Assembly (NCBI GenBank): GCA_019746425.1
Contig: JAIERY010000235.1
Span: forward strand, 1-40,699
DNA length: 40,699 nt
Origin: Cytophagaceae bacterium
GTDB taxonomy: Bacteria > Bacteroidota > Bacteroidia > Cytophagales > Cytophagaceae
Direction: 5' to 3'
The position numbers and the translations under genes were made by a program. The notes beneath the pieces were generated by a model. It was not told where the DNA came from. It saw nothing but the letters and a program-made list of their open reading frames with translations, and searched no databases. Shown piece after piece: positions 9,619 through 32,600 of the stretch. Within the stretch, counting starts at the first letter, position 1. The number at the start of each line of letters is the position of its first letter.

Positions 9619-10743
9619 TTAATTATAATTAGAGCTCATGCTGAATCCATATGCTCCGGCATTCTTCAGCGCCAGAATATCTCCTTCTTTCACTTCATTC
9701 AGGTTTCTCCCTGCTCCGAAAGTATCTGTTTCGCATATGTAGCCAACCACATTATATGCTTTGACATCCCCTTCAGGATTGGATATATTAACTATATCAT
9801 GATATGCATTATACATCATCGGTCTTATCAGGTGATTCAGCCCTGAATTAATTCCGACAAAAGTAATGTCGGGTGTTTCTTTCACCACATTCACATTGAC
9901 AAAAAGAATTCCTGATTCGCTTACCAGGTATTTTCCGGGTTCAAACCAGATCTCCAGGTTCTTACCGTAGCTTTTGCAAAAATCCGTAAAAGCTTTTTTC
10001 ATTTTTGCCCCCAGCTCAGCGACATCAGTGCTGTAATCACCTTTTTTATAAGGAACTTTGAAGCCGCTTCCAAAATCTATAAAGGATAAGTTGGGAAACT
10101 GCCTGGCAATATTGAAGAGCACATCCGCTGCTTTTACAAAAGCATCGGCATCTTTGAAGTCAGAACCGCTGTGTACGTGTATCCCGGTTACGGAAATATT
10201 ATACTTCTTCACTATATTATATATATCCTGCACCTGTTCAATGGAAATTCCGAACTTTGACTCACGATGTCCGGTCATGATCTTTACATTGCCCCCGGCA
10301 TCTATATGCGGATTGATTCTGATACAGCATGGGTAGGAACTGCCATATTCTTTTCCGAATTTTTCCAGGAAGGGCAGGTTGTCTATATTAATAGTGACAC
10401 CAAGCGCAACCGCTTCCTTAATCTCATCAAAGCAGACGCAGCTGGGCGTAAACATGATGTCTTTCTTGCCGAAGCCTGCGATCTGCGCCATTCTTAACTC
10501 TTCCAGAGAAACTACATCTACCCCGGAGCCTGCATTTTTCAGCAGCTTAAGTATGGAAAGATTGGTAAGGGCTTTGGCCGCGTACTTTATTTTAATATTA
10601 AGTCCTTCGAATGCTTTTATAAGACTGTTGTATTGATTTAATATCACATCGGCGTCATATACATATAAAGGAGTATCAAACTCTTTACATATATCTTTCA
10701 CATTCAATCCCTGGATCTGATATTGTCCCTTTTCTAACTTCAT
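9619..10743 (-). CDS. lysA: Diaminopimelate decarboxylase, truncated by an in-frame TAA
   Basis: PLP enzyme that removes CO2 from meso-diaminopimelate to give lysine, the last step of lysine synthesis. The 374 residues include the PLP lysine in KYAAKALTN, the alanine-racemase-like barrel with HVHSGSDF, the GSGFKVPY glycine loop, EPGKYLVSESG, and the substrate and dimer-interface motif ICETDTFGAGR. The conserved GAYGFSMSSNYN is followed at once by TAA. About 35 residues of the C-terminal beta domain are cut off and lie in frame downstream. The truncated product keeps the Tyr of GAYG but lacks the last strands, so reduced or absent activity is likely. Alternatives are a sequencing error, a recent mutation, or a second lysA elsewhere. 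It is divergent from the trp leader. Confidence 0.85.
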   Translation of the reverse strand: MKLEKGQYQIQGLNVKDICKEFDTPLYVYDADVILNQYNSLIKAFEGLNIKIKYAAKALTNLSILKLLKNAGSGVDVVSLEELRMAQIAGFGKKDIMFTPSCVCFDEIKEAVALGVTINIDNLPFLEKFGKEYGSSYPCCIRINPHIDAGGNVKIMTGHRESKFGISIEQVQDIYNIVKKYNISVTGIHVHSGSDFKDADAFVKAADVLFNIARQFPNLSFIDFGSGFKVPYKKGDYSTDVAELGAKMKKAFTDFCKSYGKNLEIWFEPGKYLVSESGILFVNVNVVKETPDITFVGINSGLNHLIRPMMYNAYHDIVNISNPEGDVKAYNVVGYICETDTFGAGRNLNEVKEGDILALKNAGAYGFSMSSNYN

Positions 10744-10884
10744 GATTTAAGAATTAAGGAGCAAAGATATCCAAGGGGCCGGGGTTTTCAAAGACTATAT
10801 AAACTAAGAATGCTGAAAATTTGGGCTTACAGTTTTATTTTAAGAAAAATATTATTTATTTTGGGTGTATAATTACAAAAACTG
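10744..10884. promoter_or_regulatory. lysA/trp divergent promoter region
   Basis: The trp transcript should start just before the leader peptide at 10885. TATTTTG at 10857-10863 is a partial match to the Bacteroidota -7 box, with TTTT at about 10833-10836 as a poor -33 candidate. A start near 10870 would leave a short 5' end before the leader ATG. This is inferred; no box is a full match. Confidence 0.3.
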
Positions 10885-10929
10885 ATGAGAACAATTAATA
10901 AATTCTGGTGGTGGAGCATATCCTTTTAA
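10885..10929 (+). CDS. trpL: trp operon leader peptide
   Basis: A 14-codon frame reads MRTINKFWWWSISF and stops with TAA at 10927. Three consecutive Trp codons (TGG at 10906-10914) in so short a peptide, 88 bp before trpE and just before alternative hairpins, are the mark of a ribosome-stalling leader. When charged tRNA-Trp is scarce the ribosome should stall at the Trp codons. The ATG has no Shine-Dalgarno but follows an A-rich stretch, as for most genes here. It was too short for ordinary gene calling. Confidence 0.88.
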   Translation: MRTINKFWWWSISF

Positions 10930-10930
10930 A

Positions 10931-10997
10931 AGGCTTGTGAACAACCATTATTTATTCTAAATATTAAAGGCTTGCTGTTCACAGCAAGCTTTTTTTT
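10931..10997 (+). promoter_or_regulatory. trp attenuator (antiterminator/terminator pair)
   Basis: The terminator stem GCTTGCTG (10970-10977)/CAGCAAGC (10982-10989), loop TTCA, is followed by eight T (10990-10997). The competing antiterminator pairs TGTGAACA (10936-10943) with TGTTCACA (10976-10983), which uses the loop and the inner ends of both terminator arms. The upstream strand begins 6 nt after the leader stop, so a ribosome at the stop would cover it and let the terminator form. A ribosome stalled at the Trp codons would leave it free. CCTTTTAAAAGG (10922-10933), overlapping the stop, could form a further hairpin. Confidence 0.88.
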
Positions 10998-11016
10998 CTT
11001 TAAGACCATTTAACAA

Positions 11017-12420
11017 ATGAAAACATATACATTAAAAACCAGACACAAAAAATTACTGGCCGACACGGTGACCCCGGTAAGCATCTTTTTAAGAATAAGA
11101 GATAAGTTTGCCAACAGTATTTTGCTGGAAAGCTCGGATTATCATAGCAATGATAACAGCTACTCTTATATATGCTGCAATCCCATCTCCAGGTTTGAAG
11201 TGAGCAATGGTGAAGTAAAAATAAAATATCCGGATCAGAAGCTGGTTAATCATAAACTCACCAGGAAGGGAGAAGTCATGGAACACCTTACGTCCTTTAC
11301 CAATTCCTTCGATGTGCAGCAGACGGATTTCAATTTTATAAACAATGGATTATTCGGGTATATCTCCTATGATGCAATAAGATATTTTGAAGATATTGGC
11401 ATTAATAACTACGAAAAGGAAGACAGGAAAATTCCTGAAGTGCTTTACCAGGTATACCAGTACATTATTGTAATAAATCATTTTAAGAACGAACTGTTTA
11501 TTTTCGAACATTCTTATGGCGATAAAGAAAGCAGCCTGCCAATCCTTGAAACACTCATCAACAATAAAAACTTTGCTTCTTACAAATTTTACTCAGACAA
11601 TAATGAGACCTCCAATTTTGATGATAATAGCTTCCTGGAAGTGATCATGAAAGGAAAAGAGCATTGCCATCGTGGGGATGTTTTCCAGATCGTGCTTTCC
11701 CGAAGATTCTGTCAGACTTTCAAAGGCGATGAATTCAATGTATACCGTGCTTTGCGGTCGATCAACCCTTCTCCTTATCTTTTTTATTTTGATTACGGAA
11801 GTTTTAAAATATTCGGTTCTTCTCCTGAAGCACAGATAGTCATCAAAGGAAATAAGGCAACCATATACCCTATCGCCGGAACATTTAAAAGAACGGGCAA
11901 TGATAAACAGGATGAAGAGCTGGCTAAAAAATTATTTGACGACCCTAAAGAAAACTCAGAACATGTAATGCTGGTGGATCTCGCCAGGAATGACCTGAGC
12001 AGAAGCGGAAAAAATGTAAAAGTAGAAACTTTCAAGGAAATACAGTATTACTCACACGTGATACACCTGGTGTCAAAAGTTACAGGGGAAATTTCAAATT
12101 CATCTACCCTGAATTTAGTGTCTGATACATTTCCTGCCGGTACCTTATCCGGAGCACCTAAACATATGGCCATGTCTTTGATTAATAAATATGAAAAAGG
12201 GAACCGTGGGTTTTATGGAGGGGCAATAGGTTTTATAGGGTTTAACGGGGATTTTAATCACGCTATTATCATACGTTCGCTATTGAGCAAAGACAACAGG
12301 CTGTTTTACCAGGCAGGCGCGGGTGTAGTGGCAAAATCAGATGTGCAGAGTGAGCTGAATGAGGTGAATAACAAACTGCTGGCTTTACGAACAGCAATAT
12401 CGATGGCTAAAGAAATTTAA
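11017..12420 (+). CDS. trpE: Anthranilate synthase component I
   Basis: Makes anthranilate from chorismate, using ammonia released by TrpG; the first committed step to tryptophan. The 467 residues have the N-terminal domain with LLESSDY (about 34-40), the LLES-type motif that binds tryptophan for feedback inhibition, and the C-terminal chorismate-binding domain. The latter has GDVFQIVLSRRF, PSPYLFYFDYG, FGSSPEAQIV, PIAGTFKRTG, LVDLARNDLSRSG and FPAGTLSGAPKHMAM, ending with the glycine-rich GGAIGFIGFNGD. All expected motifs are present. First structural gene after the attenuator. The gap to the next gene is filled with a TTGTAAAGTTT-type repeat. Confidence 0.95.
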   Translation: MKTYTLKTRHKKLLADTVTPVSIFLRIRDKFANSILLESSDYHSNDNSYSYICCNPISRFEVSNGEVKIKYPDQKLVNHKLTRKGEVMEHLTSFTNSFDVQQTDFNFINNGLFGYISYDAIRYFEDIGINNYEKEDRKIPEVLYQVYQYIIVINHFKNELFIFEHSYGDKESSLPILETLINNKNFASYKFYSDNNETSNFDDNSFLEVIMKGKEHCHRGDVFQIVLSRRFCQTFKGDEFNVYRALRSINPSPYLFYFDYGSFKIFGSSPEAQIVIKGNKATIYPIAGTFKRTGNDKQDEELAKKLFDDPKENSEHVMLVDLARNDLSRSGKNVKVETFKEIQYYSHVIHLVSKVTGEISNSSTLNLVSDTFPAGTLSGAPKHMAMSLINKYEKGNRGFYGGAIGFIGFNGDFNHAIIIRSLLSKDNRLFYQAGAGVVAKSDVQSELNEVNNKLLALRTAISMAKEI

Positions 12421-12421
12421 T

Positions 12422-12468
12422 TGTTAAAAAGTTGTAAAGTTTCAAGGTTGTAAGGTTTAATTAAGCGC
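12422..12468. repeat. Left arm of repeat pair bracketing the S23 gene
   Basis: The degenerate sequence GTTAAAAAGTTGTAAAGTTT (then CAAGGTTGTAAGGTTTAATT and AAGCGCT) is similar to the reverse complement of 12853-12897. The two could pair in the trp mRNA and loop out the S23 gene. Confidence 0.5.
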
Positions 12469-12469
12469 T

Positions 12470-12880
12470 ATGAGTAAAATAAACAGGTTTGAAGATTTAA
12501 AAATATGGCAAGAGGCTACAGAAATTGGAATTAAGATCTTCAAAATCACCAATGATGAGTTGAAAAAGGATTTTGCTTTGAAAGGACAACTTGAGAGAGC
12601 TGCAATATCTGTATCAAGCAATATTGCAGAAGGCTTTGAGTATAATAATACCAGAAATTTTGTAAGATTCTTATATTACTCTAAAGCATCATGCGGGGAA
12701 TTAAGAAGCCAATTATATATGGGCTTTAAATTAGAATTAATAAAAGAAGAAAATTATTTGGAATTATATGATGCGTTAATGGCATTATCAAAAAGAATAT
12801 CAGCATTTATAAAATATTTAAAAAACTTTGAAAGAAATAAGACTGAAAATACAGCTAACGCTAACCTTTCAACTTTATAA
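12470..12880 (+). CDS. Four-helix bundle protein, S23/IVP family
   Basis: A 136-residue helical protein of the S23 ribosomal-protein-like family (IVP, TIGR02436), first known from intervening sequences in 23S rRNA genes and often found singly in Bacteroidota genomes. Family marks are FEDLKIWQEATEI at the N-terminus, LKGQLERAAISVSSNIAEGF in the centre and a C-terminal SKRISAFIKYLKN helix. Related proteins form pentamers that probably bind nucleic acid; a molecular function is not established. It is out of place between trpE and trpG, is co-directional, and is bracketed by complementary repeats. The last codons (NANANLSTL) are encoded by the right-hand repeat, as expected of an inserted cassette that borrowed its stop codon. 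Confidence 0.85.
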   Translation: MSKINRFEDLKIWQEATEIGIKIFKITNDELKKDFALKGQLERAAISVSSNIAEGFEYNNTRNFVRFLYYSKASCGELRSQLYMGFKLELIKEENYLELYDALMALSKRISAFIKYLKNFERNKTENTANANLSTL

Positions 12881-12897
12881 TCTTTCAACTTTCAACC
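12853..12897. repeat. Right arm of repeat pair bracketing the S23 gene
   Basis: GCTAACGCTAACCTTTCAAC and the following TTTATAATCTTTCAACTTTC form the inverted counterpart of 12422-12468 (shared AGCG, AAGGTT, AAAGTTG blocks). It overlaps the end of the S23 gene and reaches the trpG start codon. Confidence 0.5.
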
Positions 12898-12899
12898 AT

Positions 12900-13475
12900 A
12901 TGAAATTATTAGTAATAGACAACTACGATTCATTTGTATATAATATAGTGCATATTATCCGTGAGCTGGGGCACGCGACGGTATTAGATATAGTGAGGAA
13001 CGACAAAATTTCTTTGAAAGAGATAGAAAAGTATGACAAAATACTTCTTTCTCCCGGACCGGGTGTTCCTTCTGAAGCTGGTATCATGCTCGACATCATT
13101 AAAACATATGGATCTAAGAAAAGTATTTTAGGTGTTTGCCTTGGTCACCAGGGAATAGGAGAAGTATACGGTGCAAAGCTTATCAACCTGCCGGAAGTTT
13201 ACCATGGACTGGGAATTACTACAAAAGTCATACAGAAAGATCCTATATTCGAAAGCATGCCTGAGCAGTTTACCTCAGGGAGATATCACTCATGGGCCAT
13301 AGATCCCAAATCTGATCTGAATAACCTGGTGATCACGGCAGTGGATGACAAGGGAAATATTATGGCCATACGCCATAAAGAATATGATGTGAAAGGAGTT
13401 CAATTTCATCCGGAGTCTGTCCTGACAGAAAATGGAAAAACTATACTGGATAACTGGCTAAGAGGAAAAAAATAA
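12900..13475 (+). CDS. trpG: Anthranilate synthase component II (glutamine amidotransferase)
   Basis: Class I glutamine amidotransferase that hydrolyses glutamine and passes ammonia to TrpE. 191 residues from the ATG at 12900; a longer upstream frame exists, but its first 24 codons lie in the S23 gene and the repeat, while MKLLVIDNYDSFVYN is the family N-terminus. The catalytic triad is visible: Cys80 in GVCLGHQG, and His170 and Glu172 in VQFHPESVLT. LLSPGPGVPSEAG is the oxyanion-region motif. The stop is 4 nt before trpD, so the two are tightly coupled. It may also serve p-aminobenzoate synthase, as in some bacteria. Confidence 0.95.
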   Translation: MKLLVIDNYDSFVYNIVHIIRELGHATVLDIVRNDKISLKEIEKYDKILLSPGPGVPSEAGIMLDIIKTYGSKKSILGVCLGHQGIGEVYGAKLINLPEVYHGLGITTKVIQKDPIFESMPEQFTSGRYHSWAIDPKSDLNNLVITAVDDKGNIMAIRHKEYDVKGVQFHPESVLTENGKTILDNWLRGKK

Positions 13476-13479
13476 CAGC

Positions 13480-14478
13480 ATGAAAGACATATTAAATCTT
13501 TTACTAGAGCATAAAACCTTGCCAAAGGATCTGGCCAGGCAGGTGCTTATTGAGATCGCACAGGGAAAAGTAAACAACAGTCAGATCGCTTCTTTTCTTA
13601 CGGTTTACATGATGAGAAGCATCACGGTGGAAGAGCTTGAAGGATTCAGAGATGCCATGCTGGATCTGTGTGTGGCTACCGATCTCTCAAAATATAACCC
13701 GATCGATCTTTGCGGAACAGGTGGGGATGGAAAAGATACTTTTAATGTTTCGACGCTCGCGTCTTTTGTTGTGGCGGGAGCAGGAGTGAAAGTTGCCAAG
13801 CACGGCAACTATGGAGTTTCTTCCGCATGCGGCTCTTCTAATATGATGGAGCATTTCGGTTATAAATTTACCAATGATAAATCCATACTCGAAAAGCAGA
13901 TAGAAATTGCCGGCATTTGCATCATGCATGCACCATTATTTCACCCGGCAATGAAACATGTGGCACCGATAAGAAAAGACCTTGGAGTGAAAACATTTTT
14001 TAATATGCTTGGGCCTATGGTGAATCCTGCTTTTCCTAAAAATCAGTTGGTGGGTGTTTTTAACCTGGAGCTTGCCAGATTGTATGGATACTTGTATCAG
14101 AAAACCGGAAAACATTTTGTGATACTCCATTCACTCGATGGATATGACGAGATCTCTCTTACCGGAGCATTTAAAATGGTAGGGAATGTAAAGGAGCAGA
14201 TATTAATGCCCGAAGAACTCGGTTTTGACAGATTGAATCAGCAGGAGCTGGCATCGGGAGGAACGATTGAAGAATCTGCCAGAATTTTTAAAAAAGTACT
14301 GGAAGGTAATTCAACTAAGGCGCAGAAGCAGGTAGTGCTGGCCAATGCAGGACTGGCTATCTACTGTGCCAAGCCCGAACTGTCTATTGCCGATGCAATT
14401 GTAGAGGCCAAAGAATCGCTCGAATCAAAAAAAGCGCTGAATGCTTTTAATAAGCTCCTTGAGCTAAGCAAGAATTAA
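13480..14478 (+). CDS. trpD: Anthranilate phosphoribosyltransferase
   Basis: Joins anthranilate to PRPP. 332 residues, usual length. The small N-terminal helical domain is followed by the PRPP-binding glycine loop LCGTGGDGKDTFNVST, the KHGNYGVSSACGSS segment, the anthranilate-binding HPAMKHVAPIRKDLG and FNMLGPMVNP, and the metal-binding LDGYDEIS. All are in order. It starts 4 nt after trpG and ends 4 nt before the next frame. Function is not in doubt. Confidence 0.96.
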   Translation: MKDILNLLLEHKTLPKDLARQVLIEIAQGKVNNSQIASFLTVYMMRSITVEELEGFRDAMLDLCVATDLSKYNPIDLCGTGGDGKDTFNVSTLASFVVAGAGVKVAKHGNYGVSSACGSSNMMEHFGYKFTNDKSILEKQIEIAGICIMHAPLFHPAMKHVAPIRKDLGVKTFFNMLGPMVNPAFPKNQLVGVFNLELARLYGYLYQKTGKHFVILHSLDGYDEISLTGAFKMVGNVKEQILMPEELGFDRLNQQELASGGTIEESARIFKKVLEGNSTKAQKQVVLANAGLAIYCAKPELSIADAIVEAKESLESKKALNAFNKLLELSKN

Positions 14479-14482
14479 CAAT

Positions 14483-14878
14483 ATGAAAATTCTTTTTGTA
14501 CTCTTTTTTATAAGTTTTAATTCTTTTGCCCAGCCGGAAGTAAGAGCAAAATTGCTTACAGACAGTTTGGATGGAAAATTAAATCTTACAGAAGCTCAGA
14601 AAAAGAAAATAACTGAGATAAATACCAATACATGTAAATGGCTCGATCAGGTTTATCAAAACAATACAATTGCGATAGAGCATAGCACAAATCTGGAGAA
14701 AAGGCTTAAGGAAATAGAAACAAAATGGAATAAGTCTGTGAAGAAAGTTATCGGGAAAAGAAAACTTAAAAGGTGTTGGGAAAAAAATAAAAAAGAAGAT
14801 GCGGAAAAGAATGCAGATGCATTCAGAATTAATAAAAAATACCTGGGCTTCGATTATTTGCTTCCGCACAAATATTAA
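14483..14878 (+). CDS. Small secreted protein with an LTxxQ-like motif
   Basis: 131 residues with a clear signal peptide (KILFVLFFISFNSFA, cleavage before QPEV) and a mature domain that is helical and highly charged (many K/E). LNLTEAQKKKITEI (about 34-47) resembles the LTxxQ repeat of the periplasmic Spy/CpxP family. Two Cys (in NTCKW and KRCWE) could form a disulfide. It starts 4 nt after trpD and ends 15 nt before trpC, so it is surely co-transcribed with trp, yet nothing in tryptophan synthesis needs a periplasmic protein. The Spy-like reading is tentative; otherwise unknown. Confidence 0.7.
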   Translation: MKILFVLFFISFNSFAQPEVRAKLLTDSLDGKLNLTEAQKKKITEINTNTCKWLDQVYQNNTIAIEHSTNLEKRLKEIETKWNKSVKKVIGKRKLKRCWEKNKKEDAEKNADAFRINKKYLGFDYLLPHKY

Positions 14879-14893
14879 TTAAATATACGACAG

Positions 14894-15712
14894 ATGAATA
14901 TTCTGGATAAAATCATAGAATCTAAAAAAATTGAAGTTGAAAAACGTAAGGAAGAGTGTCCTGTAGCAGAGCTGGAAGCAAGTATGTTTTTTAACAGAAC
15001 AACCTTATCCTTAAAAAAGTATTTACTGGATCCGGAAAAGAGCGGGATAATTGCCGAGTTTAAAAGAAAATCTCCTTCCAAAGGAATTATTAATGGAAAG
15101 GTATTACTTCCAAAAGTAGTGTCAGGCTATGAGGCCGCAGGAGCATCGGCTATCTCCGTACTTACAGACACAGAATATTTCGGAGGCGAGAACAAAGATC
15201 TTATTGAGGCAAGAAGCATCGTCAACATTCCTCTTCTTCGTAAAGAGTTTATTATTGATGAATATCAGATCGTAGAAGCGAAATCAATAGGCGCGGATGT
15301 AATTTTATTAATTGCTGCTGTATTGGAACCTCAGAGACTGAGAAAGCTGGCAGAGTTTGCGAAGTTCCTGGGCCTTGAAGTTTTACTGGAAGTACACAAC
15401 GAGCAGGAGCTGCTTGATAACTGCTGTGATGTAGATGTAATCGGCGTGAACAACAGAAACCTGAAAGATTTTTCTGTGAGCATTGATACCTCTATGAAAC
15501 TGGCAGAGCTTATTCCCGGAAAATACCTGAAAGTATCGGAGAGCGGCATTTATGATGCCGAAACTATTATCAAATTGAAACAGCAGGGATTCAACGGCTT
15601 TCTCATAGGAGAAAATTTTATGAGAAATGATGATCCGGCAAAAGAAATAGAGCAGTTTGTAGCGAAAATAAAAAAGATGGAAGCGGCGCATAAAAGGATA
15701 AAACCAATTTAA
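14894..15712 (+). CDS. trpC: Indole-3-glycerol-phosphate synthase
   Basis: Closes CdRP to indole-3-glycerol phosphate. 272 residues forming one TIM barrel, with the extra N-terminal helix (NILDKIIESKKIEVEKRK). Motifs: IIAEFKRKSPSKG with the catalytic lysine, SVLTDTEYFGG, LLRKEFIIDEYQI, LLEVHNEQEL, GVNNRNL and SESGI. Monofunctional, not fused to TrpF, which follows separately. Normal length. Confidence 0.96.
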   Translation: MNILDKIIESKKIEVEKRKEECPVAELEASMFFNRTTLSLKKYLLDPEKSGIIAEFKRKSPSKGIINGKVLLPKVVSGYEAAGASAISVLTDTEYFGGENKDLIEARSIVNIPLLRKEFIIDEYQIVEAKSIGADVILLIAAVLEPQRLRKLAEFAKFLGLEVLLEVHNEQELLDNCCDVDVIGVNNRNLKDFSVSIDTSMKLAELIPGKYLKVSESGIYDAETIIKLKQQGFNGFLIGENFMRNDDPAKEIEQFVAKIKKMEAAHKRIKPI

Positions 15713-15774
15713 GCTAAACGCTGAAAGCGAAAAGCTTTTTGCCTTTGGCTTTTGGCCCTTAGCCCTTAGCCTAT
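15713..15774. repeat. Low-complexity spacer between trpC and trpF
   Basis: 62 bp of short GC-tagged units, TTTTTGCC, TTTGGC, TTTTGGC, CCTTAGC, CCTTAGC, preceded by a small palindrome around AAAAGCTTTT. Looks like a decayed minisatellite rather than a regulatory site. Confidence 0.5.
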
Positions 15775-16398
15775 ATGAAAATCAAAGTCTGCGGAATGAA
15801 ATATGGTCCCAATATTAAAGAGGTCTCGGCTTTAAAACCGGACTATATGGGATTTATATTCTACAGCAGCTCTAAAAGATTTGTGGGAAATGACTTGAAT
15901 GAGCAGCAGCTTAAAGAATTAAATGGCATTGAAAAAGTCGGGGTATTTGTAAATGCTTCCGTTAGTGAAGTTTTAACCACGGCAAAAAAATTTGGTTTTA
16001 AAACCGTCCAGCTTCATGGAGATGAAACTCCGGAATATTGTAAAGAAATAAAAAGCGCTGGTTTGAAAATTATCAAGGCCATTCAGATCAACGACGAATT
16101 TGATTTTAATACCCTGAAAGAGTACGAACAGTTTTGTGATTTTTTTCTCTTCGACACTAAGAGCGAAGGCTACGGAGGTACCGGAAAAAAATTCAACTGG
16201 GAAGTTTTAAAAAAATACAATAATAAGGTCCCGTTCTTTCTAAGCGGAGGAATTGATCTGGAGGATATAGAGGAAATAAAAAAAATGAAGGGACTTAATA
16301 TTCACGCAATAGACATTAATAGCAAATTTGAAATAAAACCCGGTGAAAAGGATTATAAAAAAATTCAGACATTCATTGAGACAATGAATAATGCCTAA
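15775..16398 (+). CDS. trpF: Phosphoribosylanthranilate isomerase
   Basis: Amadori isomerase converting PRA to CdRP. 207 residues, one TIM barrel. The catalytic pair is intact: Cys6 in KVCGM (general base) and Asp127 in LFDTKSEGYGGTGKKF (general acid). Phosphate-binding loops are LSGGID and HAIDINSKFE; FIFYSSSKRFV matches the usual GFIFxxxSxRxV. Because this enzyme looks fully active, the HisA-like protein at the end of the operon is not needed as a TrpF substitute. Flanked on both sides by low-complexity spacers. Confidence 0.95.
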   Translation: MKIKVCGMKYGPNIKEVSALKPDYMGFIFYSSSKRFVGNDLNEQQLKELNGIEKVGVFVNASVSEVLTTAKKFGFKTVQLHGDETPEYCKEIKSAGLKIIKAIQINDEFDFNTLKEYEQFCDFFLFDTKSEGYGGTGKKFNWEVLKKYNNKVPFFLSGGIDLEDIEEIKKMKGLNIHAIDINSKFEIKPGEKDYKKIQTFIETMNNA

Positions 16399-16434
16399 CC
16401 TTTTAACCTTATAACTTTTGAACTTTTAACTATC
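16399..16434. repeat. Low-complexity spacer between trpF and trpB
   Basis: CCTTTTAACCTTATAACTTT and the following TGAACTTTTAAC belong to the same AACTTT-type repeat as the arms around the S23 gene, in the same orientation as the right arm (12853-12897). Confidence 0.45.
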
Positions 16435-17628
16435 ATGAAATATACAGTAAACGAAAAAGGATTCTATGGTAATTTTGGCGGAGCATATATTCCGGAAATG
16501 CTCTATCCCAATGTGGAAGAGCTTAAGGAAAAATACCTTCAGATCATTCAGGACAGAGCCTTCCAGGATGAGTTCAGGTCTTTATTAAAGGATTATGTGG
16601 GAAGACCTACGCCATTATATCATGCAAAAAGACTTTCTGAAAAATTCAACACCACTATTTATTTGAAACGAGAAGATCTGTGCCATACCGGTGCGCATAA
16701 AATAAATAATACACTTGGACAGATTCTGCTCGCTAAAAGATTAGGCAAAAAAAGAATCATCGCGGAGACAGGTGCAGGACAGCATGGTGTAGCTACTGCA
16801 ACGGTATGCGCACTGATGGGCTATGATTGTATCGTTTATATGGGTGAAGTGGACATGGAAAGACAAAAATCCAATGTAGAAAGAATGAAGATGCTCGGCG
16901 CACAGGTAATACCTGCAAAATCGGGGAGCAGAACCTTAAAAGATGCTACCAATGAAGCAATCAGAGATTGGATAAATAATCCGGTAGATACACATTATAT
17001 AATAGGTTCGGTAGTTGGGCCGCATCCATATCCGGATATGGTAGCCAGATTCCAGTCTGTAATCAGCGACGAAGTGAAAAAGCAGCTCATGGAAAAAACC
17101 GGAAAAGAAAATCCGGACTATGTAATTGCATGCGTAGGAGGAGGAAGCAATGCAGCCGGCGCATTCTATCATTTCCTGGACAATGAAAAAGTAAAACTTA
17201 TTGCAGTGGAAGCAGCCGGTAAAGGAGTCGACTCAGGATATTCTGCAGCTACCACTTACCTTGGAAAGCCGGGGATTATTCACGGAAGTAAAACATTGTT
17301 AATGCAGACCGAAGACGGGCAGGTAGTAGAGCCGCATTCTATTTCTGCCGGGTTGGATTACCCGGGCATTGGCCCTATACACGCGCATCTCTTTGAAAGC
17401 GGCCGTGCAAAATTTTTCAGCATCACCGACGAGGAAGCATTTAAAGCAGGGGTAATGCTGAGCAGGCTGGAAGGAATTATTCCGGCACTGGAGTCTGCGC
17501 ACGCGATAGCAGTGCTGGAAAATCTGAATATTAAGAAAAGTGATGTGGTTGTGTTAAACCTTTCCGGGCGTGGAGATAAAGATCTTATGACTTACATTAC
17601 GAAGAAGGACGAATTTTTAAAAGACTAA
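16435..17628 (+). CDS. trpB: Tryptophan synthase beta subunit
   Basis: PLP enzyme that condenses indole with serine. 397 residues, usual length for TrpB1. Lys89 in TGAHKINNT holds PLP; the catalytic Glu region is [13 protein letters not shown], and [10 protein letters not shown] binds the PLP phosphate. [14 protein letters not shown] and SGRGDKDL are further signatures. Acts as a complex with TrpA, encoded 25 bp downstream. Confidence 0.97.
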
Positions 17629-17653
17629 TTGCAAGCCAATAGCTCCAAACAAC

Positions 17654-18448
17654 ATGGAAACCAAAACTAAAGTCAATAATAGAATTACACAGCTCTTTCA
17701 GCAAAAGAAAGCAGGCGTATTAAATATATATTTCACCGCAGGTTTTCCTAACCTGGAGGATACTGCGCAAATAATTAAATCGCTGGAAGTTGCCGGTGCA
17801 GACATGGTGGAAATAGGAATGCCATTTTCTGACCCGCTGGCAGATGGTCCGACAATCCAGCAAAGCAATGAAGCTGCTTTGAGGAACGGTATGAATATGA
17901 AAAAGCTTTTTGAACAACTGAAGGATATAAGAAAAGAAGTTAAGATCCCGCTTTTATTAATGGGATATCTTAATCCGGTGATGCAATATGGGGTGGAAGA
18001 TTTCTGCAAGAAAGCAAATGAGCTGGGAGTTGACGGAATTATTTTACCAGATCTTCCCATTGAGGAATATATAGAAACTTATAAAGGGCTTTTTGAATCT
18101 TACAATCTTTCCAATATATTTTTAGTGGCACCCAATACTTCCGCCGAAAGGCTTAAAAAAATTGATCAGAATTCTTCTGGCTTTATATACATTGTTTCCA
18201 CCGATAGTACAACCGGGAATACTAAAGATATTACCCAGGCAGAAGGATATTTCAAAAAAATTCAATCATCCGGATTGAACAATCCTACTTTAATCGGATT
18301 TAATATCAATGATCACAAAAGCTTCAATTTTGCCTGCAATTATGCCAATGGGGCAATTATTGGCAGCGCATTTATAAAGGCTTTAAAAGAGGCAAAAGAG
18401 TTAAAAGGGTCCATTTCAAATTTTGTGTCTTCCATTAAAAAATCTTAA
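17654..18448 (+). CDS. trpA: Tryptophan synthase alpha subunit
   Basis: Cleaves indole-3-glycerol phosphate to indole, which tunnels to TrpB. 264 residues, TIM barrel. Catalytic Glu53 and Asp64 are present in MVEIGMPFSDPLADGPTIQ. Other marks are GYLNPVMQYG, GIILPDLPIEE, IYIVSTDSTTG and IGFNINDHKS. In most TrpA the last motif is GFGI; here it is GFNI, a feature I believe is common in Bacteroidota. Follows trpB by 25 bp. Confidence 0.96.
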   Translation: METKTKVNNRITQLFQQKKAGVLNIYFTAGFPNLEDTAQIIKSLEVAGADMVEIGMPFSDPLADGPTIQQSNEAALRNGMNMKKLFEQLKDIRKEVKIPLLLMGYLNPVMQYGVEDFCKKANELGVDGIILPDLPIEEYIETYKGLFESYNLSNIFLVAPNTSAERLKKIDQNSSGFIYIVSTDSTTGNTKDITQAEGYFKKIQSSGLNNPTLIGFNINDHKSFNFACNYANGAIIGSAFIKALKEAKELKGSISNFVSSIKKS

Positions 18449-18470
18449 ATTTAGTTAAGCAATACTTTTT

Positions 18471-19193
18471 ATGATCCAGATCATTCCTGCCATATCGTTT
18501 ATTGGGAATAAAGTTGCAAGGATGAATAAGTGCAGTCTTGATGATGTAAGCCTGTATGATGAAAATCCTCTGGACATGGCTTTGCATTTTCAGGACAATG
18601 GTGTGAAGCGTATTCACCTCATAGATCTGGAAGGCGCAAAAAAAGGAAGGATAGACAATGTCTCTGTCCTCGAAATGATAGCCGGATACACTGATCTTCA
18701 GATCGAATTTGGGGGAGGAATAACAGACGATGATGATATACGTCTTGCTTTTGAAAATGGCGCCCACCTGGTTCATGCTGCTACTGTTGCCGTACAAAAT
18801 CGCGAGCTGTTTTCTTCCTGGATCATTTCATACGGCAGGAATAAAATTATGCTGAGCGCTGATGCGATCGATGGAAAAATTGCTACCAAAGGATGGTATA
18901 AAAATACAGAGATAGATCTGATGGAGCTGGTTGAATATTATCACAGCCAGAGTATCATGTATGTAAAGTGTACTGACATTGCCAGAGACGGCGCTCTTAG
19001 TGGCCCCCCTTTTGAGATGTATAAAAAAATTCTGAATAAATTTCCGGATATAAAACTCATTGCCAGCGGAGGTATACGTTCCATACAGGATATTGAGCAG
19101 CTGCAGGAGCTCGGTGTTTACGGAGTAATTTTTGCAAAAGCCTTTTATGAAGGGAAGATACAGATGAAAGACCTGCAAAGGTTTTTAATATAA
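18471..19193 (+). CDS. HisA-like (ProFAR isomerase family) protein lacking the first catalytic Asp
   Basis: 240 residues, full-length HisA/PriA-family TIM barrel; HisA performs the Amadori isomerisation of histidine synthesis. Strongly HisA-like segments are HLIDLEGAKKG, IEFGGGITDDDD, ADAIDGKIATKGW (with the second catalytic Asp), CTDIARDGALSG and LIASGGIRSIQDI. But strand 1 reads IIPAISF where HisA has IPAID: Ser9 stands in place of the catalytic Asp (Asp8 of Thermotoga maritima HisA). The first phosphate loop is altered too (VHAATVAVQN instead of VIGSxAVxN). It sits 22 bp after trpA, ahead of the operon terminator, so is expressed with trp and under its attenuator. A histidine-operon HisA elsewhere is expected. 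Loss of activity, a regulatory role or a new substrate are all open. Confidence 0.88.
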   Translation: MIQIIPAISFIGNKVARMNKCSLDDVSLYDENPLDMALHFQDNGVKRIHLIDLEGAKKGRIDNVSVLEMIAGYTDLQIEFGGGITDDDDIRLAFENGAHLVHAATVAVQNRELFSSWIISYGRNKIMLSADAIDGKIATKGWYKNTEIDLMELVEYYHSQSIMYVKCTDIARDGALSGPPFEMYKKILNKFPDIKLIASGGIRSIQDIEQLQELGVYGVIFAKAFYEGKIQMKDLQRFLI

Positions 19194-19208
19194 ATTTCTA
19201 TACTATTA

Positions 19209-19250
19209 ATAATAAACCATAAAGGTTTTCGAAACCTTGCGGGTTTATTT
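19209..19250. terminator. Bidirectional terminator, trp operon/nfo
   Basis: An imperfect stem AATAAACC...GGTTTATT with an inner palindrome AAGGTTTTCGAAACCTT. It lies between the HisA-like stop (19193) and the nfo stop (19261), with A/T-rich flanks on both sides. Confidence 0.7.
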
Positions 19251-19260
19251 ATTTAAGATA

Positions 19261-20073
19261 TCAGGAAGCTAACCCTCTCAAAACCTCCAAATTCTTTTTA
19301 TCAAACTCTTTAGGAGTTTCAATTACTTTGGGAATATGTTTGAATTTATTCATGATCACTCTGAACGGCTCCAGGCCTATTTTCCCTTCGCCGATATTTT
19401 CATGCCTGTCGAGATGGCTGCCTAATTCTCCTTTGGAATCATTGAGATGAAATACATGGAGTTTTTTTAATCCGATGATTTTGTCAAGCTTTGCCAATGT
19501 ATCTTCAAAACCACTCTGTGTCCTGATATCATATCCCGCAGCAAAAGCATGGCATGTGTCAAAGCAGATCCCAATTCTGTTGGAGTCCACCATGTTCATG
19601 ATGTCGCGCAGGTGTTCAAATTTTCCGCCTACAGAAGAGCCAGCTCCTGCAGTTATTTCCAGCAGCGCTTTTACTTTCATGTATTCGGAATTATTCAATA
19701 CTATATTTAAACCTTCCGCAATCATGCTGATACCCTCTTTCGTGTCTTTGTGTGCGCCGGGATGAAGTACGGTAAATTGCAGACCCAGGTCATGACAGCG
19801 AAGCAGCTCCGCACCAAGACCGAGTATGGATTTTTTTCTGATCTCTTCATCCATGCTGGCAAGATTAAAGAGATAACTGCAGTGAGAAAATGCGATGGTA
19901 TTTTTTAATGCTGCCTTGAAGGACTCTCCTTCTGTAACTTCGTCAATGGTTTTTTCTTTCCATTGCCTCTGGTTTTTGGTGAAGATCTGGAATGTATCGA
20001 TTTCCTTTTCCCGCATTTCGCCGAATGCGTTAATCAAACCGCCTGCTATGGAACAATGTACACCGAGGAGCAT
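19261..20073 (-). CDS. nfo: Endonuclease IV (AP endonuclease)
   Basis: Base-excision repair enzyme that cuts DNA 5' to abasic sites. 270 residues, TIM barrel with three zinc ions. Metal-ligand motifs are in order: AFSHCSY, VLHPGAHKD, LLEITAGAGSSVG, GICFDTCHAFAAGYD, VFHLNDSKGELGSHLDRH and VIETP. Length is slightly below the E. coli protein (285 aa), as common for this phylum. The start MLLGVHCSIAGG is the family N-terminus. It stands alone, convergent with the trp operon. Confidence 0.96.
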   Translation of the reverse strand: MLLGVHCSIAGGLINAFGEMREKEIDTFQIFTKNQRQWKEKTIDEVTEGESFKAALKNTIAFSHCSYLFNLASMDEEIRKKSILGLGAELLRCHDLGLQFTVLHPGAHKDTKEGISMIAEGLNIVLNNSEYMKVKALLEITAGAGSSVGGKFEHLRDIMNMVDSNRIGICFDTCHAFAAGYDIRTQSGFEDTLAKLDKIIGLKKLHVFHLNDSKGELGSHLDRHENIGEGKIGLEPFRVIMNKFKHIPKVIETPKEFDKKNLEVLRGLAS

Positions 20074-25819: not shown

Positions 25820-28800
25820 ATGAAAACAAAATATGTATGCTTTTACGGGGGTCGGAAAAATAAGGTTACAAGGTTTTTAAAAAAATTCTTTTGGGACATG
25901 CGATTTAGCTTTTTACTGTGTTTTTCGCTTATTTTTTCAATTAATTGCCTTGGCCAGGTGCCAGCCAATATCAATACGGGCAACCCAAATTTCCCCTTTC
26001 CTCAATTCAAAGCTTATACTGGCGGCGCTAATACTCTTGCAAATCAGAACCCGGTAGGTATTCCTCATGCTGAAATGGAGCAACGCACACGGGATGCTTA
26101 TGCTATTCTTTGCAACAACTTAACTTATTATGTAAATCAGAACGGCACATATGCAAATCTCACAGTAAATGGTGTGAGATACATCATGCCCAATGAAGGA
26201 AATGGAAATTCTATCGCGCATTGCACCTGTGTGGAAGGAGACGGATATAATTTACTTGCCGCTGCTTACATGGCAGACAAAGCAACCTTCGACGGTTACT
26301 ACATGTGGGCGCACGACAGGATGTTTCAGAAGACAGTTCGGTTCTCAGACAATGTGATGAATTCCGCAGGATATAATTATAGTCCGGGCATAGCAGGCGC
26401 GGGTTCGTTCGGTGCATCGACGAATGTATATGGCGGCGCACTCGGAGGAAACTCTGCAGCGGATGGTGATGTGGATCTTGCATTAGCATTATTAGTAGCA
26501 TGGAAGCAATGGGGTGACGCGGGAGTGATATGCAACGACCCGCAACTCGGAGTGATCACTTACAGAAATGAAGCCATAAAATATATTCGCACGATGGTGG
26601 ATACTTTGAAATACACTCCTTCACTGCCAATAGCAAGATACATTACAGGTATTATCGGATTGGATGGTTACATGAAGGGAGGAGATTCATGGAGTGAAGA
26701 AACCAATTGGGCAACGGGAGGATATATGGGAATGGTCCCGCTGGCTACAGGACCACAAACAAATTATGTAGATTATCATGCGCCTGCATACTTCAGAGCT
26801 TTTGGTGACATGCTGCAGGCAGAAGGAATTTCTCCCTGGTGTCAGAGTCAGTACCGGCGTGCGGAAGCTTCTTGTGATTGGGTGATGGGACAAGCATTTG
26901 CACAGGGACGTATTCCATGGATAGGACAATATGGTGTTACCGGCGCAGCAGTAACATTTTCTGCATTCAATGCGGGAGGTGAAGATTTCAGATATGGATG
27001 GAGGACGATAATGAATCATATGTGGTTTGGTGCTCCTACCAGAAATTGGGATCCCAATACACATGCTGTTACTGCCGGAACAAATTCCTACAACCTCAAC
27101 ATGGCCAACCGCATGGCTGCGCTTCTGCATTATCCTGAAAATCCTCCATTCAACAATGCATGTTATGTCGGAAATACTATTCAATATGGAGGAACTTCCA
27201 ATGTGCGCTGGGAATATAGCATGACGGGTACAGCAGGCGGAGCATTTGTATTGAACATGCCGCAAGGCTCTCAATCTCCTTCCGCAGTAGTCGCCGATAA
27301 CTGGGATCTGATGTCGCAGATGTTCCGCCAGTGTGTAATTGATTACGATGATTATCTCAACCCCGGACCACAGCGATACCTTACAGCCGAGCCAAGATAT
27401 TTTCATGATTTTTTCAGGCTGCTTGGAATGCTGGTGCTCACAGGAAATTTTCATAACCCGATGAACTTCGCGGCCGCATCTACACAATCAAATATGAAAG
27501 TGTACAAAGCAGTAAATAAAACTTTTGCTTATCCTGGCGACACAATCACTTATACTATTTCTTATAGAAACTATTCGAAACAAGGTGCGACCGGAGTAAC
27601 CATCACAGACAATCTTCCGGCGGGAACAAGCTTTGTTTCCGCGAGTAACGGCGGAACAGCTGCAGGAAGCACAGTGACATGGAACATAGGAAACGTTCCG
27701 GGTTTTGTAACAGGAGGATTGGCCGCGACACAAGGTTCAGTTACATTAAGAGTGAAAGTAGATCCTGCAGCGTCAGGAAGGCTTTGCAATGTAGCTACGA
27801 TTGCTACAACCAATGGCACAGGCTGGACAAGCAATGAATATCCGAATAATATTACGGACGTGATGGAAAGAAACTGCGTGGATATTTTAAGTCAGAAACC
27901 TGTGAGCATTACCAAGACCGCGTCGCTTGCCAATGCGAGTCCGGGTGATGTGATCACTTATACTATCACCGTAAAAAACAGATCTGTTCCGTTTCTCAAT
28001 GGCGGCAGACAAGGAGTTATTGTCGCAAGCGCTCATAGCGGAATCACCGCGAGTCAGAATGCGTTGATGCTTAAGTATAGAGTATATCATGGAGCGCATG
28101 AGCCATATATCAATTATAGAAATTACAGAGTCTCTTATTATTTAAATAAAACTCCCATTCCAACATGGGTAAATAATGTAACTATCAATGAAGGTAACTC
28201 AGGTACTTTGCCAACGCTGACTCAGCAGACACTCACTCCCGGAGCTACGTGGAATCATAGATTCATTCTTACCTTCCCTAATCAGCGCGCCACTATTACA
28301 CCGATGCTTTATGCGCGATATAATAGTCCGATATACATTCATGAGGGGGCGATGGAGCCTATGAGGCTGGTGAATCAGATACGTGATGTCGGTTGGACTA
28401 ATTATAATTTTCTTACAGACTGGTCAGCAGAAGCGGGTCTAAATGTTGCTGACGGACATCCATATTTTCCAATAGCAAATGACTGGACCGACCCCTTGTT
28501 ACCCAATCAGCCGGTAACTAAAATTCATCCTAACCAGTGCGGGACAATAACCACTACTGTGCAGAGACAATTAGTGGAAGAGTGGGATGGTTATACCTGG
28601 CGAAGAGCTTACGGTAATGCGCCTGTATCGGGAAGAGAACTCACAAATGTTGTGGTGAAAGATATTCTTCCTTCTACTGTTACATTCGGCGGTTATACAG
28701 CAGGGTATCCTGCCGGAACATTAAGTGCCGGTACGATTACCTGGCCAACTATTCCTCAAATGCTTATCAATGATTCAATAGTCTATAGATTCTGGGTTAC

Positions 28801-29443
28801 AGTAAATCCTTGTCCGGGTAGCTCTCCTATAATAAACACCGCTACGGCAAAAGCCGATAATGAACCGTTGGAAACAGCTACCGCATCAACAAATTTTGCC
28901 TGTGCCCTTCCTGTTTCCTTAATTGATTTCAAGGGTAAAATGCAGCATGAAGATGCGGTGCTTACATGGACTACAGAGTCAGAGCAAAACAATGATTATT
29001 TTAATGTCGAAAGATCTCTGGATGGAAATAATTTTGTAACGATCGGTCAGGTAGATGGTAATGGAAATTCTAATTCAACAATAAATTATAATTATACAGA
29101 TCGTTCTGTTTCAGGAAGAATCATTTACTACAGATTGGCGCAATATAATTTTGACGGCACGGTGCATTATACGAAAGTGATTTCCGTTTCGAATGATAAC
29201 TCGATGGAAGTATTGATCTATCCGAATCCTTTTACAGAGGGGACAACATTGAAAGTACTTGGGAAAGAAGGAGAAAAAATTTCCGTGAGAATTGTCACAG
29301 CGACAGGAGTGGAAGTATATTATAAAGAACATAATGTGAATGAAGAAGTGAGCTTAGGATCCGAGCTTGCAAGCGGAGTTTATTTTGTGCAGGTGGTAAG
29401 CGTAGATATTACAGAGGTTCTTAAATTAGTAAAGAATAAATAA
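25820..29443 (+). CDS. Secreted GH8 glucanase with DUF11 repeats and T9SS sorting domain
   Basis: 1207 residues. The likely signal peptide is RFSFLLCFSLIFSINCLG; the ATG at 25898 may be the true start, as 26 basic residues precede it. GH8 domain about 50-540: Glu139 in VEGDGYNLL is the probable acid catalyst, DGDVDLALALLVAWKQW (215-231) matches the GH8 signature, and GGEDFRYGWRTIMNHMW follows. GH8 enzymes cleave beta-1,4-glucan (cellulose, chitosan or mixed-linkage glucan) or xylan; cellulose is likeliest here. Then come two DUF11-type beta repeats (about 559-690 and 693-1025, the second with an insert), and a C-terminal region opening ALPVSLIDFKG and ending in a type A T9SS sorting domain (IYPNPF, then ASGVYFVQV). 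No CBM is recognised. Paralogue of the next gene. Confidence 0.9.
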   Translation: MKTKYVCFYGGRKNKVTRFLKKFFWDMRFSFLLCFSLIFSINCLGQVPANINTGNPNFPFPQFKAYTGGANTLANQNPVGIPHAEMEQRTRDAYAILCNNLTYYVNQNGTYANLTVNGVRYIMPNEGNGNSIAHCTCVEGDGYNLLAAAYMADKATFDGYYMWAHDRMFQKTVRFSDNVMNSAGYNYSPGIAGAGSFGASTNVYGGALGGNSAADGDVDLALALLVAWKQWGDAGVICNDPQLGVITYRNEAIKYIRTMVDTLKYTPSLPIARYITGIIGLDGYMKGGDSWSEETNWATGGYMGMVPLATGPQTNYVDYHAPAYFRAFGDMLQAEGISPWCQSQYRRAEASCDWVMGQAFAQGRIPWIGQYGVTGAAVTFSAFNAGGEDFRYGWRTIMNHMWFGAPTRNWDPNTHAVTAGTNSYNLNMANRMAALLHYPENPPFNNACYVGNTIQYGGTSNVRWEYSMTGTAGGAFVLNMPQGSQSPSAVVADNWDLMSQMFRQCVIDYDDYLNPGPQRYLTAEPRYFHDFFRLLGMLVLTGNFHNPMNFAAASTQSNMKVYKAVNKTFAYPGDTITYTISYRNYSKQGATGVTITDNLPAGTSFVSASNGGTAAGSTVTWNIGNVPGFVTGGLAATQGSVTLRVKVDPAASGRLCNVATIATTNGTGWTSNEYPNNITDVMERNCVDILSQKPVSITKTASLANASPGDVITYTITVKNRSVPFLNGGRQGVIVASAHSGITASQNALMLKYRVYHGAHEPYINYRNYRVSYYLNKTPIPTWVNNVTINEGNSGTLPTLTQQTLTPGATWNHRFILTFPNQRATITPMLYARYNSPIYIHEGAMEPMRLVNQIRDVGWTNYNFLTDWSAEAGLNVADGHPYFPIANDWTDPLLPNQPVTKIHPNQCGTITTTVQRQLVEEWDGYTWRRAYGNAPVSGRELTNVVVKDILPSTVTFGGYTAGYPAGTLSAGTITWPTIPQMLINDSIVYRFWVTVNPCPGSSPIINTATAKADNEPLETATASTNFACALPVSLIDFKGKMQHEDAVLTWTTESEQNNDYFNVERSLDGNNFVTIGQVDGNGNSNSTINYNYTDRSVSGRIIYYRLAQYNFDGTVHYTKVISVSNDNSMEVLIYPNPFTEGTTLKVLGKEGEKISVRIVTATGVEVYYKEHNVNEEVSLGSELASGVYFVQVVSVDITEVLKLVKNK

Positions 29444-29473
29444 ATATTTCTGGAATGACATTTCATAATCGCT

Positions 29474-29580
29474 TGTCATCCTGGAAGGATCTTGCTGTTG
29501 AGAGACACTGCCATCAATAATTATTCAAAATAAAAACGAAGGCACTGTATTCAAATAACGAGGTTCCTCCTGAATGACAG
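29474..29580. repeat. Dispersed repeat, second family, copy 2
   Basis: TGTCATCCTGGAAGGATCTT at the left and, inverted, GAGGTTCCTCCTGAATGACA at the right. The left half shares GGATCTTG, TTGAGAG and TGCCATCA with the copy at 20126. It fills the 158-bp gap between the two GH8 genes, which therefore has no terminator of its own. Confidence 0.5.
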
Positions 29581-29601
29581 CATGGGGTCCGGAATGAAAC
29601 T

Positions 29602-32600
29602 ATGAAAACAACCGGGGCATTATTAAGAATAACATTCTTCTGCGGGATAATTTTTTCCGCTCCGATTCTCTTTGCCCAAACCTGGCCGGCTGATACTATT
29701 AATACAGCGATTAATACAGGCAATCCTAAATTTCCTTTCCCTCAATTTAAAGAATATAATTCTGGTAAGACACTGGCATTATACAATGCAGAAGGAGTGA
29801 CTCATGCCGATATGGAGAAATCCATGAGAGAGGCCTACAAAATTATGATGCACCGCTGTCTTTATGTCCCTGGTAAAATTCTAAATGGGAAAAAATATAT
29901 TGTATACAATCATTCAAGTGTGCCTTATAACAATAATACATTTGTGTCAGAAGGAGATGGATATGCTTTGATAGCTGCTGCATATTTTGCCGATAAAGAT
30001 GCTTTCGATGGATTGTGGCTATGGATTCATGATAACAGGCTGAGCAAAATAAGACAATACTATGGCCCATGTAATAATTTAAGACCTGGTTATAGATATG
30101 GACCTAATCTTCCCGGCTGGAAAAATACAGAGACTACTCCGGTAAATAATGGAGACAATGATTCTGCTACTGACGGTGATTATGATATTGCGATGGGTTT
30201 ACTTCTTGCCTGGTATCAGTGGGGAGATAATATGGGTATCAATGATGCTTGCGGAACCCCAATCAGTTATAAGACAGAAGCTTTGAATATGATCAAAGCC
30301 CTGGTAGATACATTTCAGTTAAATAATCTGAGCGGTGCATACACCGGACATATGTCGGGTGATATAGGAGTAGACGGGTATTGCAAAAATGGAAATACAT
30401 GGGATGAAACTACTGGATGGAGATATACGCTTGCCAATACCGCTTACGTATGGGCGAGGCCAAAACCTGAAGCATATAATATTTCTGGTTTATACACTGA
30501 TTATATTGGTCCTGCCTATTTCAATCAGTTTGCAAAATTTTTAACGGCCAATGGAGGTACGCCATGGCAGATCAATCAGTTCCTCCGTGGCGAAGCTTCA
30601 TCGGATTGGCTCATTGGGCAAATGTATGCTAAAGGATATATAGCCAGTTCAGGAAGCTGCACGGTTAACAATGATGGTTCGGTCACAACATTTGGTGCGC
30701 ATCCGAGTGGTGCTGGCGGTGAAGATTTCAGAGCAGCATGGAGAACGATTCTTAATTATGTATGGCACGGGAACCCAACTACTAAGTGGGATCCGGTAAG
30801 CCATCAGGTAGTTGCCGGAGGAAATACCTATGAAAGAGATATGGGATTGCGGCATGCGGATTTTTTAAAATATCCACGCACACTTCCAAGCCCAATCACT
30901 TCAGCCAACTGCCAGAAGATGGGGGCATCGCCCGATCCAAGTTGTCCGGATTTTAAAGGAGTAGTGAATATCAAACAGCATCATACAGTAACAGGAGCTC
31001 AGGGTACAGACAACTACAGAACAAATTATAATGTAGGAACAGGGGCACCTGCTGCCGTTGCATCGGGAGATCTTGACCTCATCGCGGAAATTTACAGACA
31101 GTCAGAAATTTTGTGGGATGGTGCTAATCCTGCTTTACCAAAGACTGCACCTGATGATGACCGCTATATAAAAGATACTCCAAAATATTTTCACGACTGG
31201 TTCAGATTGCTCGGGATGTTAACAGCATCCGGAAATCTTCATCCTCCTACCAGCATGATGCCGGCCGCGAATATGAAAGTATATATGGCAGTTGATAAAA
31301 CGTATGCTTATCCCAATGATCTGATTACTTATACTGTGAGCTATAGAAATTATGGGTCAGTGAATGCCACAGGTGTAGTAATCACTACTCCCTTGAGCGC
31401 CGATTACAATTTTGTATCTGCTACCAACGGAGGCTCTTTGAGCGGAGGAAATATTATTTGGAATATTGGAAATGTCCCCGGCTTTCAATCAGCTACGGGT
31501 ATTCCGCCTACGCAAGGCACAGTGCAGTTTGCTGTTAGGGTGAAACCTTCGCCTGCCAGCAGCAGAGTTTGCTTAACGAGCACAATTACAGCAACAAACT
31601 CCGATCCATGGACAAGCAATGAATATCCCAACAATGCCACCTATACCATGGAGAGGAATTGCGTCGATCTCCTCACCGCGAGAAATTTAAATATTGTGAA
31701 AACGGCTGACAGGCCGGTGATGAATCCCGGCGATATTGTAAACTTTAATTTAGAGTTTGAAAATTTAACCGGATCCAATCTCTGGCTTAATGGTGGAAGA
31801 GACAGAGTAGTGGTTTCTTACGGAAATTATTATTTAATGTCTAATACTTTTTACCAGTTCTACAGATTCTGGCATTCAGCGCCTGAAGCATATATCAATA
31901 TGCATAATTACAGAGTGTCTTATTATATGAATGATGCAGCTGCAGTTGGCTTATACAATGCAGCAACTAACCCTACCGGGTGGTCATTCTCTGTAGACAA
32001 CCAAATGGATCTTGATAAATATTTTTATAATCCGGCTACTCTCCCTGCCAATGAAAGAATTACATTTTCCTATCAGGCAGTGCCGTGGGGAAGCGATGCG
32101 AATGGAAGCTGGAACCAGCGTATCATGCTAAGGTTTGCCAATGTGCTTACTGCTCCCACTACTCATATTTACGATAAGCTCGACAACATGTATCTTATAC
32201 ATAAAGGGGTGCTTGGTCCAGGATTTATTCGTACCAAAATGGAATCAACCCCTCCGTCAAGCCTGGCAGCGCGATTAACAGATGACTGGTCTTATAGTAA
32301 TGCAGTAGACATCGGTATGGTGGATGGCCAATCGAAGAGATTGTCTCCGATTACAAACAGTTGGGCAAACCCAGCCAACCTGAATGTGCCGGTAAATAAT
32401 TATAGCAAAGATGTATGTGATCCCAATGTTCCCAATTACAATAGGTTATTAGTAGAAGAATTTGACGGTTATACCTGGAGAAGAATAGCGGGCAATGGAC
32501 CGCTTCCGGGAAGAGAAGCATACAATGTCGAAGTGATAGATACTATTCCCGATTATCTCACCTGGAATGGTTTTACGGATGATAATGCGTTAGGAATTAC

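Follow-up and report, generated by a model that had tools for sequence, protein, structure and literature searches.

A probable ribosome-mediated transcription attenuator before the trp operon of a Cytophagaceae bacterium

The trp leader and its elements

The window analysed here, a stretch of 40,699 nucleotides from a Cytophagaceae bacterium, carries a trp operon that is preceded by a short Trp-rich reading frame, two hairpins, and a run of eight T. The initial annotation had read these elements, from the leader through the hairpins and T8 to trpE, as a tryptophan attenuator, and re-reading of letters and positions confirmed every one of them. They are listed below with the neighboring features.

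10857-10864, + strand: weak candidate -7 promoter box, TATTTTGG, with 5 of the 6 defined bases of TAnnTTTG, 28 nt before the leader ATG
10885-10929, + strand: leader peptide open reading frame MRTINKFWWWSISF, with ATG at 10885 and TAA at 10927-10929; WWW leaders are conserved before the trpE of relatives
10897-10956, + strand: 1:2 (anti-antiterminator or pause) hairpin, part of the minimum-free-energy fold and only partly conserved in relatives
10906-10914, + strand: three adjacent Trp codons (TGG at 10906, 10909, and 10912), the putative sensor
10936-10943, + strand: strand 2, TGTGAACA, 5' arm of the antiterminator
10976-10983, + strand: strand 3, TGTTCACA, 3' arm of the antiterminator and at the same time apex and loop of the terminator hairpin
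10966-10997, + strand: intrinsic terminator, with stem 10966-10977/10982-10993, G+C core 10970-10989, and T8 at 10990-10997
11017-12420, + strand: trpE, anthranilate synthase component I, the first gene presumed to be controlled
12470-19193, + strand: rest of the presumed transcription unit

No Shine-Dalgarno sequence is visible for the leader frame at 10885-10929. The 1:2 hairpin spans the Trp codons and takes in some of strand 2. Measured from the first base of each codon, strand 2 starts 24 nt past the last Trp codon and 9 nt past the stop codon. The core of the terminator is formed by the arms GCTTGCTG (10970-10977) and CAGCAAGC (10982-10989). The pairing of TGTGAACA with TGTTCACA, proposed in the initial annotation as the structure that breaks the terminator, is present and is an alternative to it. 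The pattern ATG-N18-TGGTGGTGG has two copies in the whole genome, one being the trp leader; the second ATG-N18-(TGG)3 copy (C417, L113) lies antisense within a long coding sequence and was rejected as a chance occurrence. A search before hisG of the same genome for a corresponding His-leader attenuator found no His-rich frame.

The predicted fold of the leader region is more stable than that of shuffled versions (z -2.78, with 1 of 200 shuffles as good), and its minimum-free-energy structure, a check suggested together with the original reading, holds both the 1:2 hairpin (10897-10956) and the terminator (10966-10993). Termination is favored at equilibrium: the terminated structure reaches -29.9 and a forced antiterminated one, extendable by pairing of 10928-10935 with 10987-10994, reaches -20.7. 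This greater stability of the terminator would be in keeping with a constitutive attenuator that holds trp expression at a fixed level, the Trp-rich frame then being no sensor. If the leader is instead a switch, the outcome at equilibrium means that the switch must be kinetic and decided during transcription, as in other attenuators; when the RNA extends only to 10984 and a ribosome occupies the Trp codons, the best fold is the antiterminator (-9.0). The 2:3 helix of the window (-10.9) has a less favorable energy than the family average and, with the shorter definition of strand 3, does not differ significantly from shuffles of its own spacer (z 0.2). A first duplex test, in which strand 3 was cut at the loop, missed the pairing of the window, and the replacement extends 3 nt into the 3' arm.

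Conservation, covariation, and ribosome geometry

The DNA upstream of trpE was compared at 146 loci from Cytophagales and other Bacteroidota, and frames of at most 45 codons containing WWW were counted. Such a frame occurs at 108 of the 146 loci, compared with 0 in the reverse complement, 2 in the reversed sequence, and an average of 0.1 in shuffles; the conservation of Trp codons that an alignment upstream of trpE had been predicted to reveal is thus evident. A Trp leader and a terminator are found together at 125 loci, which comprise 50 of 67 usable regions from genomes of the same family and order, 74 loci of named genomes (Cytophagales, Flavobacteriia, and other Bacteroidota), and the window itself. 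At the remaining loci, either the leader or the terminator was not found in the 500 bases searched upstream of trpE. Among these, five genomes of family f4 (G021, G040, G055, G069, and G094) and several of family f20 have no Trp leader within 500 nt before trpE, and trp control in the f4 and leader-less f20 genomes may differ.

RNAalifold applied to the MAFFT alignment recovered the terminator alone, an outcome that is expected because the two structures are mutually exclusive, and a partner-swap test was therefore used. In this test, the RNA from the last Trp codon to the terminator was paired, at each locus, with the 5' arm and loop of the terminator. Among 59 dissimilar representatives, own strand 2 with own strand 3 gives a mean of -16.5 kcal/mol versus -10.8 for swapped partners (z -14.5; 0 of 20,000 permutations), so that the compensatory changes anticipated in the initial annotation are indeed observed. 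The paired sequences vary jointly, from TGTGAACA/TGTTCACA in the window to GGGATGAGG/CCGTCATCC in L130, GAATCGG/CCGATTC in L138 and L145, and GGCGATAAGT/ACTTATCGC in L139. Strand 2 of the window pairs better with only 4 of 58 foreign terminators than with its own, and GTGAAC and CTGTTCAC hardly vary among the closer relatives. Because strands 2 and 3 change together between families, selection acts on the antiterminator, which is no chance by-product of a palindromic terminator.

The spacing of these elements is equally regular. Across the 125 leaders, the distance from the last Trp codon to strand 2 is tight (median 21 nt, sd about 3.4), and that from the Trp codons to the stop codon is loose (sd 11.5). 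In 122 of the 125 leaders, the window among them, the start of strand 2 lies 13 nt or more past the last Trp codon and no more than 12 nt past the stop codon, each counted from the first base of the codon, whereas 64 of 125 would be expected under uniform placement of strand 2. Such limits match a ribosome that reaches, on its 3' side, about 12 nt beyond the A-site codon, the same distance as in Korolev et al. (PMC4833913). The geometry is what would be demanded of a strand 2 that is free when the ribosome stalls at the Trp codons and masked when it arrives at the stop codon, and the spacing of Trp codons, stop codon, and antiterminator strand therefore fits ribosome control, as had been proposed from the window. 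A WWW frame, seen at 108 of 146 loci versus 0.1 by chance, would be superfluous for a constitutive terminator, as would a strand 2 that keeps a fixed spacing from the Trp codons and changes in step with the terminator arm, and this explanation seems very unlikely.

Proposed mechanism and known Trp leaders

Conservation of WWW, covariation of strands 2 and 3, and footprint geometry together lend strong support to the Trp-codon-sensing attenuation put forward in the initial annotation, and we consider it highly probable that a ribosome-mediated transcription attenuator sets the expression of the trp operon according to the supply of charged tRNA-Trp. In the proposed sequence of events, RNA polymerase would transcribe the leader and a ribosome would begin on MRTINKFWWWSISF. 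When Trp-tRNA is scarce, this ribosome would stall on UGGUGGUGG with its 3' edge near 10924, leaving strand 2 (10936-10943) free to pair with strand 3 (10976-10983) as strand 3 emerges; no terminator would then form, and transcription would proceed into trpE and onwards. When Trp-tRNA is plentiful, the ribosome would reach the stop codon at 10927 and cover the RNA to roughly 10939, masking half of strand 2, so that strand 3 would pair with strand 4 and transcription would end in T8. If the leader is not translated, the 1:2 hairpin (10897-10956) would sequester strand 2, and termination would be expected in this case too.

A leader that works in this way might nevertheless have as its main product the terminated short RNA or the peptide, acting in trans, for which rnTrpL and peTrpL of Sinorhizobium meliloti provide a precedent (PMC7298713). 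Strands 2 and 3 are more conserved in sequence within the clade than pairing alone requires, as a trans-acting product might lead one to expect, but this conservation is also explicable by common descent and by the pairing of strand 3 with both strands 2 and 4, and a predominant role in trans seems exceedingly improbable.

Riboswitches, T-boxes, and TRAP-like systems control trp genes in other phyla, and a direct RNA or protein sensor of tryptophan of this kind could be imagined to govern the terminator, with the short frame being incidental. Among Rfam families, including those of T-boxes and riboswitches, none reaches its gathering score in the whole window. The best weak matches are the two Trp peptide leaders, RF01692 and RF00513, and the geometry tracks the codons and the stop, both of which speak against a direct sensor; we give this explanation hardly any credence.

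The novelty implied in the initial annotation, which held a clean example in this phylum to be worth describing, is not supported, as elements of this kind are already recognized in Bacteroidota (RF01692, PMC2864571, PMC6414381, PMC9723704). Rfam family RF01692, Bacteroid-trp, represents a Bacteroidota leader of the Trp peptide type (Weinberg et al., 2010, PMC2864571). Its model positions 1-131 align full-length to 10862-10976, with the Trp codons on the 5' side of the hairpin, at 39.8 bits; because the gathering score of 49 is not reached, strict membership is not claimed, and the window leader counts as an example, scoring below threshold, of an element type already known. Its location agrees with the family, as trpE lies downstream and the relatives are Bacteroidota. 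Both share a position before trp genes, a short Trp-rich leader, a 1:2 hairpin over the Trp codons, and, after the hairpin, AAAGGCUUG... where the terminator begins. The model stops at this point, however, so that the 2:3 antiterminator and the terminator described for the window lie outside it. A second weak match to RF01692 in the genome (L002, 24.4 bits, E 4.4) lacks a run of Trp codons and was rejected.

In Flavobacterium psychrophilum, which belongs to another class of the phylum, a conserved element before the trp operon was discussed by Rochat et al. (2019, PMC6414381), and Guerin et al. (2021, PMC9723704) reported strong clues for leader-peptide attenuation before amino-acid operons. 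That trp leader resembles the one in the window in phylum, in its position before the trp operon, and in the proposed mechanism, but its RNA was detected by transcriptomics, whereas the description given here is based on sequence alone. The proteobacterial family RF00513, Trp_leader, scores 34.7 bits against the window, below its gathering score of 41. Like the trpL of Escherichia coli, a member of that type, the window leader has Trp codons in strand 1, a 2:3 antiterminator opposed to a 3:4 terminator, and a strand 2 that would be masked by a ribosome at the stop codon; unlike it, the window leader has three adjacent Trp codons, is without a Shine-Dalgarno sequence, and forms an antiterminator by capturing the terminator hairpin at its loop and apex. 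The trpL (rnTrpL) of S. meliloti has in common with the window a 14-residue leader peptide and a trpE attenuator, but its mRNA is leaderless and acts in trans (PMC7298713), whereas the transcript of the window is predicted to start some nucleotides upstream.

The mechanism of attenuation itself is textbook. The Rfam model misses most of the order, as its cut-off is exceeded in only 6 of 98 genomes of relatives, compared with 50 of 67 usable trpE upstream regions of these genomes that have leader and terminator. The covarying 2:3 antiterminator and the fixed distance from Trp codons to strand 2 are supplied here beyond that model, and the geometry amounts to a rule, both quantitative and testable, for ribosome-mediated attenuation where, as in this phylum, initiation does not use Shine-Dalgarno sequences.

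Promoter boxes and downstream genes

The promoter of the window copy is uncertain, since its -7 box is imperfect with respect to the Bacteroidota consensus TAnnTTTG (quoted in PMC7366714). Of the 125 leaders, 70% have a perfect -7 box no more than 70 nt ahead of their start, compared with 6% of shuffles; the window leader is not one of them. At 58 of the 125 leaders the box is placed 11-20 nt before the start codon (1% in shuffles), most often at -13, and although many of the loci are closely related Flavobacteriia, several lineages of Cytophagales show the box at this position as well; the window leader has no box in this interval. With the usual distance from -7 box to transcription start, RNA would begin at the AUG or a few bases before it, and transcription from a box at 11-20 nt is therefore predicted to start at the AUG or very close to it. 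There is, in our estimate, an even chance that in much of Bacteroidota the trp sensor frame belongs to an mRNA that is leaderless or nearly so, a prediction that covers relatives, among them probable Cytophaga-type genomes, and not the window, and that we did not find in the literature consulted. In Bacteroides thetaiotaomicron, 5' UTRs shorter than 10 nt make up only about 3.7% (PMC7366714). The trpL RNA of S. meliloti begins at its own AUG (PMC7298713), and the leaderless idea thus has a precedent in another phylum. If it is true, cells that lack Shine-Dalgarno sequences could load the sensing ribosome at once.

In the window, trpE is followed by a gene for a four-helix-bundle protein of the 23S-rRNA-IVP type, trpG (ATG near 12900), trpD, a DUF4890-like gene, trpC, trpF, trpB, trpA, and a HisA-like gene. 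Besides the terminator of the attenuator, no other terminator-like site is present on the + strand in 10700-19400, and control of the additional genes is plausible because none lies between the attenuator and 19193. If these genes are co-transcribed, the attenuator would govern three non-trp genes, namely the 23S-rRNA-IVP-type, DUF4890-like, and HisA-like genes.

The first of these, encoding a four-helix-bundle 23S rRNA intervening-sequence protein (12413-12900), lies within the trp operon at the trpE-trpG junction. A gene of this type is found in the trp operon of at least 10 other Bacteroidota at three different junctions: trpE-trpG (L076, L106, L064, L066, L036, and L037), trpD-trpC (L097, L100, and L089), and trpG-trpD (L070). 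It is flanked by partly complementary repeats and is absent from the nearest relatives (L004-L008). By analogy, it may be a mobile element in operons, akin to the IVS elements in 23S rRNA.

Between trpD and trpC, 14483-14878 encodes a small secreted-looking protein with a weak DUF4890 match, for which no homologue was found among the loci fetched. After trpA lies a second HisA homologue (18471-19193), the canonical hisA being located on another contig (C363). In this paralogue, the IIPAID motif reads IIPAIS, with Ser at the position of the catalytic Asp, as it also does in the trp-linked copies of four relatives (L163-L166), and the protein is probably not an ordinary ProFAR isomerase. Further downstream, the window encodes two very large related secreted proteins (25820-29443 and 29602-34296) and a third, probable glycoside hydrolase (36544-38361), and this region (25820-34296 and 36544-38361), judging by its sequence, looks like a cluster for cellulose or glucan degradation.
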